DNA of 64,000 nt from assembly GCA_022651385.1 (NCBI GenBank), contig JALCQR010000001.1:124001-188000 (forward strand), given 5' to 3'. This document shows, piece by piece, positions 7,343-18,982 of this stretch. This DNA comes from Clostridia bacterium. GTDB lineage: Bacteria > Bacillota > Clostridia > Lachnospirales > Anaerotignaceae. The notes beneath the pieces were generated by a model. It ran no database searches. It worked only from the letters and a program-made list of their open reading frames with translations, and had not been told where the DNA came from. The first letter of the stretch is position 1. Each line of letters starts with the position of its first letter. Both the position numbers and the translations under genes were made by a program.

Positions 7343-8152
7343 ATGATAAAACTAATAGCTTCGGATCTTGACGGCACTTTTCTAACGCCTGAAAAAGAAG
7401 TAACAGCTCAAAATCGTAAAATACTTGAAAAATGTGCCAAAAAAAATATAATGTTTGTTCCTGCTACGGGGCGTACTTTAAATGCTGTGCCTGAGTATGT
7501 GCTTACGCTGCCGTCAGTTAAATACATAATGACCTCAAACGGTGCAGCCGTCTATGAATATCCTTCTATGAAACAGATTATTGATGAATGTTTAAACAGT
7601 GATACGGCACAATTTATTTATGAGGAGCTTAAAAAACACAAAGTAATGCTTGAATTGTTTTCAAAGGGCAGGGCTTATACATCGAAATACTTTGCTACAC
7701 ATCTTTCCGAATATGGTGTTTTTGGCCAACATGCATATTATATCCAAAGTACAAGAGTTAAAGTTGACTCTCTTGATAAAATATTTTATGAGAATATAAA
7801 TTCGATAGAAAATATAAATATTATTTTCCCCGACATTTCATTAAGGCCCAAGCTGAAAAAAATATTTTCAGATAAGGCTTTTATTACAACTTCTTCGCCT
7901 AACAATATGGAAATCAGTTCCGTAAAGGCCACAAAGGGAAATTCTTTAAAAAAGCTTTGCAGCATTCTTTCTATAAAAAAAGAAGAAACAATTGCTTTTG
8001 GCGACAGCGAAAATGATATAGACATGATTATGTTTTCGGGATGCGGGGTAATAATGGAAAATGCAGACGACAAGTTAAAAAAGAAAGCAAATTACATGGC
8101 AAAGTCGTGCAGCGAAAGCGGATTTGCAGACTTTTTGCAAAACTATATTTAA
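7343..8152 (+). CDS. Cof-type HAD-superfamily phosphatase
   Basis: 269 residues from the ATG at 7343, which has AGAGGTGAT before it; an in-frame ATG 66 bp upstream has no such site. HAD motif I is SDLDGTF with the nucleophile and acid/base Asp. Motif II is near PATGRT. Motif IV is FGDSENDIDMI near the C-terminus, and a C2-type cap lies between. These enzymes dephosphorylate small sugar phosphates or cofactor intermediates in the cytoplasm; the substrate cannot be told from sequence. It heads a likely operon: the next gene begins 17 bp downstream. Confidence 0.88.
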   Translation: MIKLIASDLDGTFLTPEKEVTAQNRKILEKCAKKNIMFVPATGRTLNAVPEYVLTLPSVKYIMTSNGAAVYEYPSMKQIIDECLNSDTAQFIYEELKKHKVMLELFSKGRAYTSKYFATHLSEYGVFGQHAYYIQSTRVKVDSLDKIFYENINSIENINIIFPDISLRPKLKKIFSDKAFITTSSPNNMEISSVKATKGNSLKKLCSILSIKKEETIAFGDSENDIDMIMFSGCGVIMENADDKLKKKANYMAKSCSESGFADFLQNYI

Positions 8153-8168
8153 AATTTGGAGGAAAAAA

Positions 8169-9644
8169 ATGCAAGAAACAGATGAATCAAAACTCTGTGA
8201 TCTTTCTTCACAGTATATTTTCAATGAGACTACTGGCAGTATGCTTTTGCTCTTGGATAGTTTTATGGAACAGAGAACATCACCTAATCCTATGTTTGAA
8301 AACTTTGAGATTAATAAAGATATAACTGATATAAGAGATAAAATAAATGAGAATATAAAATCGCTTAAAGGTATTCTTTCAGATGACAAAAAACGAAAAG
8401 AATGCCTTGACAAATGTCTTTTGCTTAAGAAAAACCTTATAGATATATATACATTTATATTCGGCTATTATACAAAGCTTAACAGCATTTCGGAAATGGT
8501 AAGCGACGAAATTGCAATACGCAAATATCGTGAAGATGAAAATAACAAAGACAAAAAAATTGAGCTGCCTCTTTTTTATGCCGATTGTGTGGATTTATTA
8601 AAACGCGCTGAATCCCCTGAGAAATTAAAGGGATACACAAGTGAGATTTTTAAATGTATTCCGATGAAAATGAGCCGCCAAAGATACTTCAGTTTGCTTG
8701 AAAGAAGTCTTGTCAAAGCTTTTAACGGTGCATCAGAGGATGAGATTACAAAAACATTTGATATTTTCAAAAGAACTGCTGCTCCGGAGCTTTCACCGGA
8801 TTACGGAAAATATTTCAGCGATATAGCAGATGCCCTTAAAGAAAAAAACAGTATAAAGGTTTCGGAACTTTCAGATGTAAAATTAAAATTAGAATTTGAT
8901 GATATATCGCAGCTTCTTGATTCCGTAAATGAAATAGAAGATTATTTTCAGCTTACTTTAAGTGATATAAACTCACTTATAATATTGTATTTTATGGGAT
9001 ATTCATTTGATGAACTTACTGAAAATGAGTTTGGATATGCCGACTGCTACTATAAAATTTGTGAGCTGATGGATAAACCGGAGGATACGGCTTTTGACGA
9101 CAGCCTTTCAGAGGAAATAGAAACTTATGTTGAACCTATTATTGACAAGGCAAATGAACTTAACAAAAAAATAATGGAAATTCTTTCAAAAGTTGATGAT
9201 GTTTCTTCTTTAAGTTCGGATACACTTAAAACTATTTCCGCCGAAGGGTTTGTGAGGTCTTGCTTTTATGAGGACATAAACGATGATTTCGTTTTTTGTT
9301 CTGACAGCAATTCACAAGCTGCGTCTGACGGACTTGTAAAAAAGGCTGTATCGGATTTTGTATCATATATTAAAGAATACTTGGTCTCACTTCCGTCTGC
9401 CACAAGAAAGTATACCATGCAGTCAATTATTTCTGCACTTCCTATTGATTTGAATTTTGATGAGATAATGGCTTATATTAAAGAGGGAATAGACAACGCG
9501 TCTTCTTTCGAACAGCAATTGCTTATAGTTGACAAGATTGGAAACGTATTTCTTGACAACGGTATGACTTTTGATGATGTTGAAGATGAATGCCACCATA
9601 CTCATGACGATGAATGTAGCTGCGGCCATAACCATAACCATTGA
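8169..9644 (+). CDS. Uncharacterised acidic helical protein with His/Cys-rich C-terminal tail
   Basis: 491 residues from the ATG at 8169, chosen for GGAGG seven bases upstream. I do not recognise a domain. The sequence is acidic, predicted largely helical, without signal peptide or membrane segments, so cytoplasmic. The last 20 residues hold a cluster of His, Asp and Cys (ECHHTHDDECSCGHNHNH) that looks like a metal-binding tail. Similar His/Cys tails occur on metallochaperones and on SecA, where they bind Zn or Ni. Its neighbours are a HAD phosphatase (17 bp upstream) and a VOC metalloprotein (20 bp downstream), consistent with one transcript. A metal-delivery role is speculation. Confidence 0.85.
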   Translation: MQETDESKLCDLSSQYIFNETTGSMLLLLDSFMEQRTSPNPMFENFEINKDITDIRDKINENIKSLKGILSDDKKRKECLDKCLLLKKNLIDIYTFIFGYYTKLNSISEMVSDEIAIRKYREDENNKDKKIELPLFYADCVDLLKRAESPEKLKGYTSEIFKCIPMKMSRQRYFSLLERSLVKAFNGASEDEITKTFDIFKRTAAPELSPDYGKYFSDIADALKEKNSIKVSELSDVKLKLEFDDISQLLDSVNEIEDYFQLTLSDINSLIILYFMGYSFDELTENEFGYADCYYKICELMDKPEDTAFDDSLSEEIETYVEPIIDKANELNKKIMEILSKVDDVSSLSSDTLKTISAEGFVRSCFYEDINDDFVFCSDSNSQAASDGLVKKAVSDFVSYIKEYLVSLPSATRKYTMQSIISALPIDLNFDEIMAYIKEGIDNASSFEQQLLIVDKIGNVFLDNGMTFDDVEDECHHTHDDECSCGHNHNH

Positions 9645-10062: not shown

Positions 10063-10093
10063 TTGACTCTTACACAGTGATATGGTTTATTAT
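10063..10093 (+). promoter_or_regulatory. MerR-type promoter of the DMT transporter gene (19-bp spacer)
   Basis: -35 TTGACT (10063-10068), exactly 19 bp, then -10 TATTAT (10088-10093). The spacer is a partial dyad (ACTCTTACAC / GTGATATGGT). An over-long 19-bp spacer with a dyad between the boxes is the hallmark of promoters activated by MerR-family proteins. A near-identical element occurs at 11060, and a merR gene lies at 12653. Confidence 0.75.
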
Positions 10094-10117: not shown

Positions 10118-11056
10118 TTGGGCAAAGAGCAAAACAGGACAAGGGGAATTATTTTAACATTTATTGGAGGAGTTAGTTTTGGATTTTCAGGAACTTGTGT
10201 ACAATATCTGCTGAGCACTAAGGGGATAAATCCAGTTTGGCTTACAACAATTAGGATGTTTTTTGCAGGAATTATTTTGATGATTATTGCATTTATAAGA
10301 CAGGAAAAAATTGTTTGTGAGATAATTAAGGACAAAAAAGATTTGGCAATGCTTTTACTTTTTGGTACAGCCGGTATTATGTCATGCCAGTATACATATA
10401 TTGTTGCAATATCATACTCAAACGCCGGTACTGCAACCGTACTTGAATATCTTGGCCTTGTACTGATAATGATATTTGTATGCCTAAAAAGTTCAAAACT
10501 GCCTAGTATAAATGAGGTTTTTGCCATAATACTTGCACTTACAGGCACATTCCTTTTGGCTACCCACGGAAATGTACATTCACTTGCAATATCAAAATCA
10601 GCTCTTTTTTGAGGGCTTATATCAGCTTTCGCTTTTGCATTTTACTCTGCACAGCCTGAAAAGATTATAAAAAAGAGAGGGGCACTTCCGGTCACTGCCT
10701 ATGGAATGTTTATAGGCGGAATAATCCTTACAACTTTTACGAGAGCGTGAAGGTTTAACATAAATTTAGACATAGCCACTGTTTTGGCACTCTCGGTTAT
10801 TGTGCTTATAGGTACAGTTGCTGCTTTTATCCTTTATCTTCAGGGAATAAGCGATATAGGGCCTTCAAACGCAAGTCTCATTGCCTGCATTGAACCGGTA
10901 TCAGCGACGATTTTTTCTGTATTATGGATGAAAAGCAGTTTCAGTAAAATAGATTTCGTAGGTTTTGCTGCCATAATTATATGTGTTATACTGCTTTCTG
11001 TTAAAAAAAATGGTAAATGTGCTGAAAACGTTACCCCCAATATATGTGACAAATGA
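10118..11056 (+). pseudogene. EamA/DMT-family transporter, single frame interrupted by two TGA codons at Trp positions
   Basis: From the TTG at 10118 (AAAGGGGTG upstream) one frame runs to 11056, encoding about 312 residues with ten hydrophobic segments in two EamA halves. It is an inner-membrane drug/metabolite exporter of unknown substrate. The frame is broken only by TGA at 10610-10612 and TGA at 10748-10750. Relatives have Trp at both sites (ALF-W-GLISA and TRA-W-RF). Two other Trp residues use TGG. There is no frameshift or other visible decay. Either two TGG-to-TGA nonsense mutations occurred, or the codons are read through. Its own stop is also TGA. The promoter is MerR-type, shared with the next gene. 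Confidence 0.8.
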
Positions 11057-11059
11057 CTA

Positions 11060-11090
11060 TTGACTCTACAACAGTTATAGGGTTTAACGT
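11060..11090 (+). promoter_or_regulatory. MerR-type promoter of the PLP lyase gene (19-bp spacer)
   Basis: -35 TTGACT (11060-11065), a 19-bp spacer with dyad CTCTACAAC / GTTATAGGG, and -10 TAACGT (11085-11090). It starts 4 bp after the transporter's stop codon. The spacer length and dyad match the element at 10063, so both genes are probably switched on by the same MerR protein. Confidence 0.75.
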
Positions 11091-11130: not shown

Positions 11131-12321
11131 ATGGATAAAATGAATTTTGAACGTGAAACGAATATTTTGTATAAAGGAGACAGAGTAAAAGGCTGTGACA
11201 TTGTGCCTGAGGCTGCTCCTCTTTTTCTTGCATCAGCTTTCGATATTGCCGGAGATCTTGATGATGTAAACAGCATGTATGAAAACAAGGGATATACATA
11301 TATACGTACAAGAAATCCCAACAGACATATGCTTGCCGATAAAATTACTTATATGGAAAACGGCGAGGACAGTGCTATTTTCTCGTCAGGCATGGGCGCT
11401 ATACAGACAGTGCTTTTCACATTTTTAAAAGGCGGAGACCATTTGGTAGCAAGTGACACACTTTATGGCGAATCAATAGAGCTTATTGAGATAATGAAAG
11501 AGTATGGAATTGATTATACATTTGTTGATTTCAGTGATACACAGGCAGTTAAAAAAGCTATAAAGCCAAACACAAAAGTAATTTACAGTGAAACGGCAAG
11601 CAATCCTTGCGTTGCTCTTACGGATGTTGAGGAATTGGCAAAAGCAGCTCATGAAAACGGAGCTTTGCTTATAATAGACAACACATTTGTAACGGCTTAT
11701 GCCGTAAGATGTCTCGATATTGGTGCTGATATAGTTATAAACAGCCTTACAAAATTTATAAACGGACACAGTGACGCTCTTCTTGGCTCTGCTACAGGCT
11801 CAAAAGAGCTTATAGAAAAAGTGCTTACAAGACAGTCAATATTCGGCACCGCAGGAGGAACTTTCAGCGCATGGCTTGTTCAAAGATCAATGCAGACTCT
11901 TTCTCTGAGAATGAAAAAAGCCATGTATAATGCAGACAAGCTTGCAAATGCTCTTTATGAAAATCCGCATGTAATAAAAGTAAATTATCCTACGGTTCCT
12001 AACTATGCTCAGAAGGAACTTGCCAAAAAGCTGTTTAAAAATGGATATGGCTGCGGAGCTATGCTCAGTTTTGAAATGCCTGACGACAGAGCAAAGATAA
12101 ACGAGTTTATGAAACGTCTCCAGATTTGCCATTATGCTCCTACACTCGGCGGTGTAAGAACAACAATGTCACATCCGGCAACTTCGTCACACAGAGATTT
12201 GCCTGAAGAACAGAAAAAGGCACTCGGAATTACAGAAGGACTTATGAGAATCTCAGTAGGCATTGAAGAAGCAGAGGATTTGATTAAAGATTTTACACAG
12301 GCACTCAAAGCATTTGATTGA
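11131..12321 (+). CDS. Cys/Met-metabolism PLP enzyme, methionine gamma-lyase-like
   Basis: 396 residues, a full-length member of the trans-sulfuration family. The PLP Lys lies in NSLTKFINGHSD. Other markers are YIRTRNPN near the N-terminus, SSGMGAIQ (phosphate binding), ETASNPC and IDNTFVTAY. The ATG has AAGGAGG seven bases upstream. Candidate reactions are gamma-elimination of methionine or cystathionine, or O-acetylhomoserine sulfhydrylation; the motifs do not settle which. The MerR-type promoter just upstream and the co-regulated exporter suggest a stress or detoxification role involving sulfur compounds rather than routine methionine synthesis. That last point is inference. Confidence 0.88.
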   Translation: MDKMNFERETNILYKGDRVKGCDIVPEAAPLFLASAFDIAGDLDDVNSMYENKGYTYIRTRNPNRHMLADKITYMENGEDSAIFSSGMGAIQTVLFTFLKGGDHLVASDTLYGESIELIEIMKEYGIDYTFVDFSDTQAVKKAIKPNTKVIYSETASNPCVALTDVEELAKAAHENGALLIIDNTFVTAYAVRCLDIGADIVINSLTKFINGHSDALLGSATGSKELIEKVLTRQSIFGTAGGTFSAWLVQRSMQTLSLRMKKAMYNADKLANALYENPHVIKVNYPTVPNYAQKELAKKLFKNGYGCGAMLSFEMPDDRAKINEFMKRLQICHYAPTLGGVRTTMSHPATSSHRDLPEEQKKALGITEGLMRISVGIEEAEDLIKDFTQALKAFD

Positions 12322-12588: not shown

Positions 12589-12621
12589 TAGACAATTGGC
12601 TTTGAGTAATGTATAATTGTC
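12589..12621 (+). promoter_or_regulatory. Promoter of the merR gene with overlapping dyad
   Basis: -35 TAGACA (12589-12594), 17-bp spacer, -10 TATAAT (12612-12617). An inverted repeat GACAAT / ATTGTC (12591-12596 and 12616-12621) overlaps both boxes. Transcription would start near 12624. This excludes the in-frame ATG at 12617 as start and supports the TTG at 12653. Confidence 0.65.
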
Positions 12622-12652
12622 CATATCAAAAAGCTTTGGAGGAGTGATATTT

Positions 12653-13474
12653 TTGGATAAGCTTTTTACTATAGGCGAAACAGCTAAAATTATGGGAGTT
12701 TCTATCCAAAGTCTGAGGCATTACACAAATATGGGATTGCTTCATCCAGAATATGTTGATCCTGACACCGGATACAGGTACTATTCTTTTAATCAGCTCC
12801 ATTACATTGATCGTATAAAATATCTGCGAAGGCTTGGAGTGCCACTTTTAGATATAAAAGATGCTTTTGACAGCGGAAGTCCGGACCGGCTTGTGCCGCA
12901 TCTTAAAGAACAGAAAATTATGCTTGAAAAAGAACTTAAAAGTGTTCTTAAAGCCATTGAGGATGTGGAATGGTATACGGAATATTTTGAGTATCCAAAA
13001 AAACGTATACTCCACAGCATACCATATATTAAAGAATTTCCGAAAAGATATGCTTTCGGTACTGTCTGCGGTGAAAATGAAAAAGTTTCAGATATTGAAA
13101 TAAGGCTTACTGATATGCGAAACAGTAGTGAAGCAAAGGCAATGACATATTTTAGGCAGTATGGATATACGGCTGATTTTAATGCATTGAAAAACGGCAG
13201 GTTTGAACCGTTTGTACATTATATGTTTCTTAAAGAAAAGCCTTATTATATTGCTGAAAAATTTAAGAATGATGTACTTGTTTTTCCTAAAGGCGAATAT
13301 CTTTGCTTTTTATGCAGGCTCAGGTCGCCAAATTGCGATTTTTCCCAAGCAGTTAAAATACTTTCAAATGTGAGCAGCTCAAAATTAATGTTGGCAAATG
13401 AATATGAGGATAATTTAAGAGAATACAGTGAATGTCCATATGAGATACAGGTATTAATAAGCGAGGATAATTAA
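12653..13474 (+). CDS. MerR-family transcriptional regulator with large effector domain
   Basis: 273 residues from a TTG at 12653, preceded by GGAGGAG; the upstream ATG overlaps the -10 box. Residues about 3-70 form a winged helix of the MerR type (LFTIGETAKIMGV, then LRHYTNMGLL and DTGYRYYSFNQL). A coiled coil lies at about 75-110. The C-terminal 160 residues resemble a BmrR/GyrI-type ligand-binding domain (VFPKGEYLCFLCR). Such proteins activate multidrug-exporter genes on binding hydrophobic cations. The two MerR-type promoters upstream, at 10063 and 11060, are its likely targets. The spacer at its own promoter is 17 bp, so it is probably not auto-activated in the same way. Confidence 0.9.
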   Translation: MDKLFTIGETAKIMGVSIQSLRHYTNMGLLHPEYVDPDTGYRYYSFNQLHYIDRIKYLRRLGVPLLDIKDAFDSGSPDRLVPHLKEQKIMLEKELKSVLKAIEDVEWYTEYFEYPKKRILHSIPYIKEFPKRYAFGTVCGENEKVSDIEIRLTDMRNSSEAKAMTYFRQYGYTADFNALKNGRFEPFVHYMFLKEKPYYIAEKFKNDVLVFPKGEYLCFLCRLRSPNCDFSQAVKILSNVSSSKLMLANEYEDNLREYSECPYEIQVLISEDN

Positions 13475-17608: not shown

Positions 17609-18982
17609 TTGAAAAAAGATTGCATTAAGCATTTAAGGTTGGTGCTTATGCTGTTTTTGTCTGCTGTTCTTATCACTTCTTGTGCCGAAAAAGACAAAAA
17701 CAGCAATAATCAGCAGCATGTTAAAAATAGCAGCTCTCAAGGCAGTTCTATTTCTTCAGCAGAGGAAGATTCAAATAAAGTTGATTCAAGTACTTCGTCG
17801 TCAGAAAAGAATGATGATACGCAAAAAGATAATGAGAAAACGAATAGTACAGGCAAAGACAACAATAATAGCAATTCAGGCAGTTCATTAAATAAAGATA
17901 ATGACAATGCTGTTTCGCCGAAAAGAGAAGAAGTTATATCTAATTCTTCGTCAGGCGGAGGAAGCAATGAAAACAATAAGCACTTAAATTATCCTGCGGT
18001 TGTAACCGATAAATCTCTTACAAAGTATTGGAACATTATAGATGCGGTTGCTGAAGCCGGACAAGTATATTATAATGATAATTTCAGCAAAACTCGACTC
18101 ATAGCTAATAACGGATATCTTTATAATTGGGCATCAAAAGAAAAGATTGACGTTAATTATCTTATAAAAAACGGATATTTGTCATCTAAGTATGCTAACT
18201 CGGGCTGCGAGGTATTGCTTTTAAACTGTGACGATTTCAACAACTATGATACGGTAAGCCTTAAAGATTCAGAATGCGGTCTTACGGTTTTTATTTCACT
18301 TAAAAATCCAAATGATAATTCATATCTTATCGCAACAAGCAAAAGCATGGGCGGCAGTCTTTCAGCATCTCAGTATGCAGCTTTGCTTAACAGCTATTAC
18401 CAAGATCACGGCCCTGTTTCGAGACTGTATCCTGATACCGACACTTATAATAGGATATTGAGTTTTATAAGTATGTATGAGGCAAAATATGAGGATTATT
18501 ACGTAAGAAGTGTGTATTTAGATGATAAATATGCTTTTGTTACTCTTTCTCCGGCAAGCAACACTGCTGATATTAGAGAATATATATTGAAAAAATCAAA
18601 TAGTATTTGGGAAGTTGCATATAGCGGTTTGGAGAAAGAACCAAGGATGCTTGTGGCTGTAAACAAAAATCTACCGGATTTTAATATATCTATGCTGCCT
18701 GCATGCAGTACATATGATTACAGAAACAGTATAGATACTTCGAATTCAGAAGTTTTATCAAAACTTATGAGCGAGAAAATAATAAAAAGTGAAAATTATG
18801 TAAAATACATATGTTCTACTTCAAAATATGCATATGTAAATTTGAAAAATGAGTTGAAATTTTTATGTATTAAAGAAAACGGTGAATGGAGCATAATACA
18901 GGTTGCAAGCTGTGATGATGCAGAAAGAAAAATGCTTTCAAAATCAAGTACAGCTCCGGTTTTTATAATTCTTGACAAATAA
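17609..18982 (+). CDS. Lipoprotein with Ser/Asn/Asp-rich linker, unknown function
   Basis: 457 residues from a TTG start directly after the previous stop codon. The N-terminal signal peptide ends in lipobox LITSC (Cys about residue 25). Residues about 28-120 are low-complexity Ser, Asn, Asp and Lys, typical of a spacer through the wall. The C-terminal 330 residues form a globular region with repeated aromatic-rich segments (KYWNIIDAV, YLYNWASKE); I cannot assign a domain. It is exported and anchored on the outer face of the membrane. The promoter for the run is at 17127. The low-complexity stretch also appears in-frame as Lys/Ile-rich sequence in another phase, which is only a shadow. Confidence 0.82.
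   Translation: MKKDCIKHLRLVLMLFLSAVLITSCAEKDKNSNNQQHVKNSSSQGSSISSAEEDSNKVDSSTSSSEKNDDTQKDNEKTNSTGKDNNNSNSGSSLNKDNDNAVSPKREEVISNSSSGGGSNENNKHLNYPAVVTDKSLTKYWNIIDAVAEAGQVYYNDNFSKTRLIANNGYLYNWASKEKIDVNYLIKNGYLSSKYANSGCEVLLLNCDDFNNYDTVSLKDSECGLTVFISLKNPNDNSYLIATSKSMGGSLSASQYAALLNSYYQDHGPVSRLYPDTDTYNRILSFISMYEAKYEDYYVRSVYLDDKYAFVTLSPASNTADIREYILKKSNSIWEVAYSGLEKEPRMLVAVNKNLPDFNISMLPACSTYDYRNSIDTSNSEVLSKLMSEKIIKSENYVKYICSTSKYAYVNLKNELKFLCIKENGEWSIIQVASCDDAERKMLSKSSTAPVFIILDK

Follow-up and report, generated by a model that had tools for sequence, protein, structure and literature searches.

Two in-frame UGA codons at tryptophan sites of an EamA-family transporter gene: a probable nonsense pseudogene in a Clostridia bacterium with the standard code

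The window studied here, a stretch of 64,000 nucleotides from a Clostridia bacterium, contains a gene of the EamA/DMT transporter family whose frame is interrupted by two TGA codons. Such a locus raises the question of whether UGA is decoded as Trp in this gene or in this organism, or whether the gene carries two ordinary stops. A preliminary description, made from the sequence alone, had offered four options: paired nonsense mutations, opal suppression or readthrough, transfer from an organism that uses TGA as Trp, and assembly errors. Paired nonsense mutations proved to be the best supported of the four. The features of the gene are as follows.

10118-11056, forward strand: EamA/DMT transporter frame with a TTG start and two TGA interruptions (frame reading and Pfam)
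10610-10612, forward strand: first in-frame TGA, codon 165, where the second EamA repeat begins
10748-10750, forward strand: second in-frame TGA, codon 211
11054-11056, forward strand: terminal TGA stop of the EamA frame

Translation of the frame confirmed the earlier reading of a single frame of about 312 codons with TGAs at 10610 and 10748; no frameshift or indel was found within 10118-11056. The 313 codons, terminal TGA included, contain stops only at codons 165, 211 and the end, with 45 open codons between the two internal TGAs, and the TTG start is preceded by GGGGTG, read from the sequence as a ribosome site. When the transporter was read through, PF00892 (EamA) matched it in two stretches (1.8e-37, 129 bits), and the three stop-delimited pieces scanned singly against EamA gave 1.4e-18, 0.0007 (the middle piece, a weak match) and 1.2e-12. 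Within the first piece, Pfam EamA repeat 1 covers residues 9-148, and the best repeat begins at residue 161. No substrate can be assigned to the transporter, because its TIGR00950 score of 139.5 is below the cut-off of 230.2. Under the organism's own code the frame is interrupted, at TGA codons 165 and 211.

The identity of the two sites was judged from two sets of homologues, namely the best 80 of 579 in named contigs and, from within the organism's own taxonomic family, 29 of the best matches, the latter sharing some genomes with the former. Among the best 80 of 579, site 1 (codon 165) is W in 64, F in 6, Y in 4 and another residue in 6, and site 2 (codon 211) is W in 68, F in 6 and another residue in 6; wherever Trp occurs at either site in these 80, its codon is TGG. 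The 29 same-family homologues gave F 16, W 9 and L 4 at site 1, and W 25, T 2, S 1 and V 1 at site 2. The comparison with orthologues that had been suggested as a check returned no TGA and no other stop at either site (0/80 of the best homologues and 0/29 of the same-family set). The counts bear out the claim that both TGAs lie at Trp positions, with one qualification: in the best-scoring genus (g14) the residue at site 1 is F or L, which makes an ancestral Trp there likely, not certain, for the lineage of the transporter. A single substitution cannot turn a Phe codon into TGA but can do so for the Leu codon TTA, seen once. As in nonsense pseudogenes, the premature stops stand where relatives carry sense codons. 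The two other Trp codons of the gene are TGG, as had been stated; three of the five Trp sites of the family are no longer Trp codons in this transporter. As a separate observation, codon 21 (10178-10180) encodes Phe in place of Trp21, which is W in 29/29 and in all of the best 80 homologues.

The decoding of UGA in the rest of the genome was evaluated from the use of stops, the release factor and the tRNAs. The filtered ORFs of at least 150 codons in 464 kb (n = 356) end in TAA in 249 cases, TGA in 93 and TAG in 14; the claim that TGA serves as a stop elsewhere, and also ends this gene (at 11054), therefore stands. The gene for RF2, prfB, is present at 513 bits against a cut-off of 370 bits, and loss of RF2, expected for UGA=Trp recoding, was not seen as judged from gene presence. 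This prfB, on contig C5 of the organism's own genome (L084), carries CTT-TGA-C in frame after 25 codons, preceded by a G-rich stretch, a sequence described as the autoregulatory frameshift site of RF2 genes (PMC12421855); the G-rich element lies 5, not 3, bases ahead of CTTT. The residues leading into the GGQ loop of RF2 read YRSSGAGGQ. A Ser or Ala just before the loop marks an efficient RF2.

A total of 41 tRNA matches were obtained in the genome, of which ARAGORN named 40; the weak 41st, at C12:78, was not called. The proposed search for a tRNA-Trp with a UCA anticodon found none among the ARAGORN-named genes or the examined loci, and Trp is represented only by CCA. His and Ile tRNA genes are absent from the recovered set, which indicates that assembly gaps hide some tRNA genes; the absence of a suppressor tRNA is hence not final, and that such gaps could hide one counts against a pseudogene. 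Reading of the tRNA-Trp(CCA) sequence showed that its anticodon stem has five pairs and that its D-stem contains U11-A24, A24 being the base of the Hirsh suppressor in E. coli (PMC13092985). The U11-A24 pair is not a new suppressor feature, as evidenced by its presence in the tRNA-Trp of a relative (G048, L221). The tRNA-Trp of B. subtilis also has U11-A24.

Selenocysteine insertion was considered and rejected. No selB was found over the cut-off in the profile search (best 198.2 bits against 242.25), and the best tRNA-Sec match, which at 47.7 bits is just above the Rfam score of 47, is the same gene that ARAGORN names tRNA-Ser(UGA). Together with the restriction of the change to just these two codons, that marginal match is what could be cited for a reading in which the gene came from a TGA-as-Trp organism or TGA means selenocysteine here. 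A code-4 donor is at odds with the homologues, which use TGG at both sites, and with the gene itself, in which two of the four Trp sites are TGG. The labels of the best 80 of 579 homologues are of Bacillota type except for one Actinomyces and one "uncultured bacterium"; the proposed transfer finds no footing in these homologues, and we regard a foreign-code or selenocysteine origin as extremely improbable.

If UGA were read as Trp throughout the genome, TGA should recur at conserved Trp sites of other genes. We compared 864 kb of the organism's own genome (33%) with 800 kb of one sister-genus genome, which yielded 205 aligned segments and 61,605 columns after 252 antisense or other-frame segments had been dropped; this filter reduced the Trp/TGA pairs from five to two. 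In the 351 columns with Trp in the sister-genus relative, the organism has TGG in 296, another codon in 53 and TGA in 2. The two TGA columns are site 2 of the transporter and a frame antisense to rpsR (ribosomal protein S18). TGA at the Trp sites of many genes, a further check proposed at the outset, was thus not seen in this third of the genome set against the 800 kb of one relative. Genome-wide recoding was rejected, since TGA commonly ends ORFs, RF2 is present and TGA at Trp sites is nearly absent elsewhere in the 864 kb compared. The organism uses the standard bacterial code, in which UGA is an ordinary stop.

Other interrupted frames were also examined. When the first 20 and last 10 columns of each of the 205 segments were left out, internal stops remained in only three segments other than the transporter: a TAA just upstream of the SpoIIIAE frame (L080), a stop in an antisense segment (L074) and a TGA opposite an alignment gap (L070). 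Whole-genome scans found no internal stops in ABC_tran (62 matches) or BPD_transp_1 (22). A scan of the 864 kb for frames with at least 25 open codons on each side of a stop, the list being read by eye, gave 28 TGA, 66 TAA and 9 TAG sites, including both transporter TGAs. Pfam was applied to 10 of the 11 TGA junctions of a 50-codon scan (all but gltB/gltD), a membrane-fusion gene and five others. Gene-gene junctions with Pfam matches were DHH/TruB, GlmU-like/SpoVG, SpoIIIAE/AF, ArsR/P-type ATPase and L19/signal peptidase; DUF6762 and Lit are each followed by an open stretch without a match, and three and four interrupted frames, respectively, had no Pfam match in the two Pfam batches. A second broken gene was identified by this route, an HlyD-type membrane-fusion protein (L066, own-genome C1:16762-18261) whose frame is cut by TAA at codon 428; the residues at this position in 11 aligned homologues are E (5), D (2) and N, A, L and H (one each). 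Broken genes in this organism are therefore not confined to TGA at Trp.

A sequencing or assembly error at both sites has in its favour that one genome represents both species and genus. It is opposed by the nature of the changes, two clean substitutions of the same type in one gene with no indel, by an assembly that is 99.88% complete in 19 contigs, and by the scarcity of other stops in the 205 aligned segments; we consider such an error quite unlikely.

The chance that two independent nonsense mutations would both be TGG to TGA depends on the mutational model. It is about 0.0009 if all changes are equal, about 0.008 if transitions are favoured fourfold, about 0.013 under an AT-biased model and about 0.06 if only G:C-to-A:T transitions occur. 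The earlier judgment that a double landing on Trp is unlikely holds insofar as the event is unusual across this range (0.0009-0.06); it does not hold as a mark of something extreme. With roughly two thousand genes in the genome (a number estimated from genome size), the coincidence is mildly surprising, and a chance of only about 0.1-6% still weighs against a pseudogene.

The conservation of the remaining residues informs the age of the lesion. In the 30-row set, 50 residues reach a conservation of at least 95% among the other rows; the transporter retains 44 of them and is the second most deviant. By the same test L052 deviates more (46/53 kept), L043 keeps 45/50, and the majority of rows differ at no more than two positions. 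At an 85% conservation threshold the transporter is the third most deviant of the 30 rows, and in the other set (the best 80 plus the transporter) it differs at 3/37 and is listed fifth of 81, tied with others. Its terminal branch is 0.58 in a tree with a median of 0.25, in which several open homologues have branches of 0.8-1.2 and the position of the transporter is poorly supported (37/66). These comparisons suggest that for most of its history the gene was probably under selection, with some relaxation possible. The 44/50 residues kept and a branch shorter than those of several open homologues speak against a pseudogene, as does the lack of a frameshift or any other lesion. Damage is also seen among relatives: one homologue (L051) is interrupted by TAG at position 55 of its match, and the second copy in genome G001 (L252, G001:C158:9700-10708) is cut short after residue 134, where unrelated repeated sequence takes over close to the contig end; in the stop-marked homologues of G087, G097 and G008 (C416) the stop lies at the distal end of the matched stretch. 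The transporter seems to be dispensable at times.

The upstream region and the genes that follow the transporter were also mapped.

10063-10093, forward strand: MerR-type promoter/operator of the transporter, TTGACT, 19-bp spacer, TATTAT (read from the sequence; pattern search)
11060-11090, forward strand: second copy of the same MerR-type promoter, ahead of the PLP gene, TTGACT, 19-bp spacer, TAACGT
11131-12321, forward strand: intact Cys/Met-metabolism PLP enzyme (best NCBIfam match methionine gamma-lyase, below cut-off)
12617-13474, forward strand: MerR-family regulator (PF13411, 5.9e-15)

MerR-family regulators act at promoters with spacers of 19-20 bp (PMC8113463). The pattern TTGACTCTNNNNCAGTNATANGGTTTA, derived from these two promoters, has two perfect matches in the window and none in 100 shuffles; with a looser pattern the two promoters are the only exact matches in the whole genome, with three more at one mismatch (the reversed control gave two). 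The MerR-family gene at 12617-13474 is likely the activator of both promoters, the PLP enzyme is probably co-regulated with the transporter, and the three genes probably form one small regulon. Neither a PLP nor a MerR gene was found beside the homologues (0 of 109 loci, flanks of 0-5 kb), and a glyoxalase relative was nearby at 1 of the 109 (L144). Elsewhere in the window, long ORFs at 8124-9644 and 17609-18982 (506 and 457 aa) have no Pfam match above cut-off.

Taken together, the evidence makes it probable that the transporter gene is a recently nonsense-mutated EamA-family pseudogene in a standard-code organism. Both UGAs would be ordinary stops read by RF2, and translation would stop at codon 165, at the onset of the second EamA repeat, so that the main product would be a half-transporter, probably without activity. 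Traces of the full-length protein are probably made as well, UGA being the leakiest stop and tRNA-Trp(CCA) tending to insert Trp there. In E. coli, UGA is reported as the leakiest stop and as mostly read as Trp (PMC11126739), and readthrough of catA86-TGA is given as 6% in wild-type Bacillus subtilis (PMC7918605, citing Karow 1998); with two serial stops at 6% each, the full-length yield would fall to about 0.4%. Of the nonsense mutations open to a gene, UGA in place of a Trp codon is probably the least damaging, and this leak may have softened selection and may account for the survival of two mutations that are both UGA at Trp codons. We infer the youth of the pseudogene, its inactivity, the function of its promoter and the softening effect of readthrough. 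That the promoter is intact in sequence and matches that of the intact neighbour counts against a pseudogene.

The same leak lends itself to a functional interpretation, in which both UGAs are kept because tRNA-Trp(CCA) reads them usefully, so that UGA suppression sets how much transporter is made, an amount that might change with growth state or with the supply of charged tRNA-Trp. In favour of this, the stops are both UGA and both at Trp sites, with no UAA or UAG, in a frame that is otherwise open, with an intact promoter and constraint mostly kept; moreover, site 1 is followed by G, a context reported to weaken E. coli termination (PMC11126739), and in-frame stops with dN/dS below 1 are reported to be widespread in prokaryotes (PMC7918605). 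The two stops multiply to the 0.4% calculated above, though, the tRNA-Trp is without special feature (its anticodon stem has 5 bp and its U11-A24 pair is shared with G048), and neither TGA is found in the 29 same-family or the best 80 homologues, so we hold functional readthrough to be rather unlikely. Very doubtful is the more specific proposal that double-UGA readthrough by a normal tRNA-Trp, at a rate governed by tRNA charging and release-factor supply, sets a rare, cell-to-cell variable transporter dose tuned by tryptophan or stress within a MerR-controlled two-gene regulon. Of the opal suppression or readthrough originally proposed, a dedicated suppressor finds no support, only tRNA-Trp(CCA) having been recovered, and leaky readthrough by that tRNA may occur.

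A working half-size transporter, in which the 164-residue product with its one complete EamA repeat might pair with itself, was weighed as well. Small DMT proteins do pair with themselves, the first TGA lies at the start of the second repeat (repeat 1 at residues 9-148, the best repeat from 161), and the G001 copy likewise ends after residue 134. The downstream 148 codons still read as EamA, however, which would be unexpected had a half protein long been selected; the 29 and the best 80 aligned homologues cover both repeats, and in the G001 copy the break leads into unrelated repeats close to where the contig ends. The 164-residue product is highly unlikely to be a working transporter of this kind.

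Regarded as a broken transporter, the gene is ordinary and the exotic options are not needed. Its value is as a clean test case, with two UGAs, each at a Trp site, in an organism for which UGA is a stop. It could reveal whether such alleles persist in Clostridia through leaky decoding of UGA, a question that bears on how a reassignment of UGA to Trp could begin.

Comparison with known systems places the pseudogene as follows. With EamA-like DMT transporters (PF00892) it has in common two EamA repeats, a length of about 300 residues and mostly retained conserved residues; it differs from them in its two internal TGAs and in Phe at Trp21. LicB (7b0k) is its sole solved relative by sequence, and a weak one (E 0.00077). 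Like UGA-as-Trp recoding of the Mycoplasma type (code 4), it has TGA where Trp is conserved, in this case within a single gene; recoding systems of this kind are described as having a tRNA-Trp with a 4-bp anticodon stem (PMC13092985). With the bacterial nonsense pseudogenes described in PMC7918605 it shares an otherwise open gene, premature stops and intact relatives, and it stands apart from them in that both of its stops are TGA at Trp sites, with no other lesion seen.
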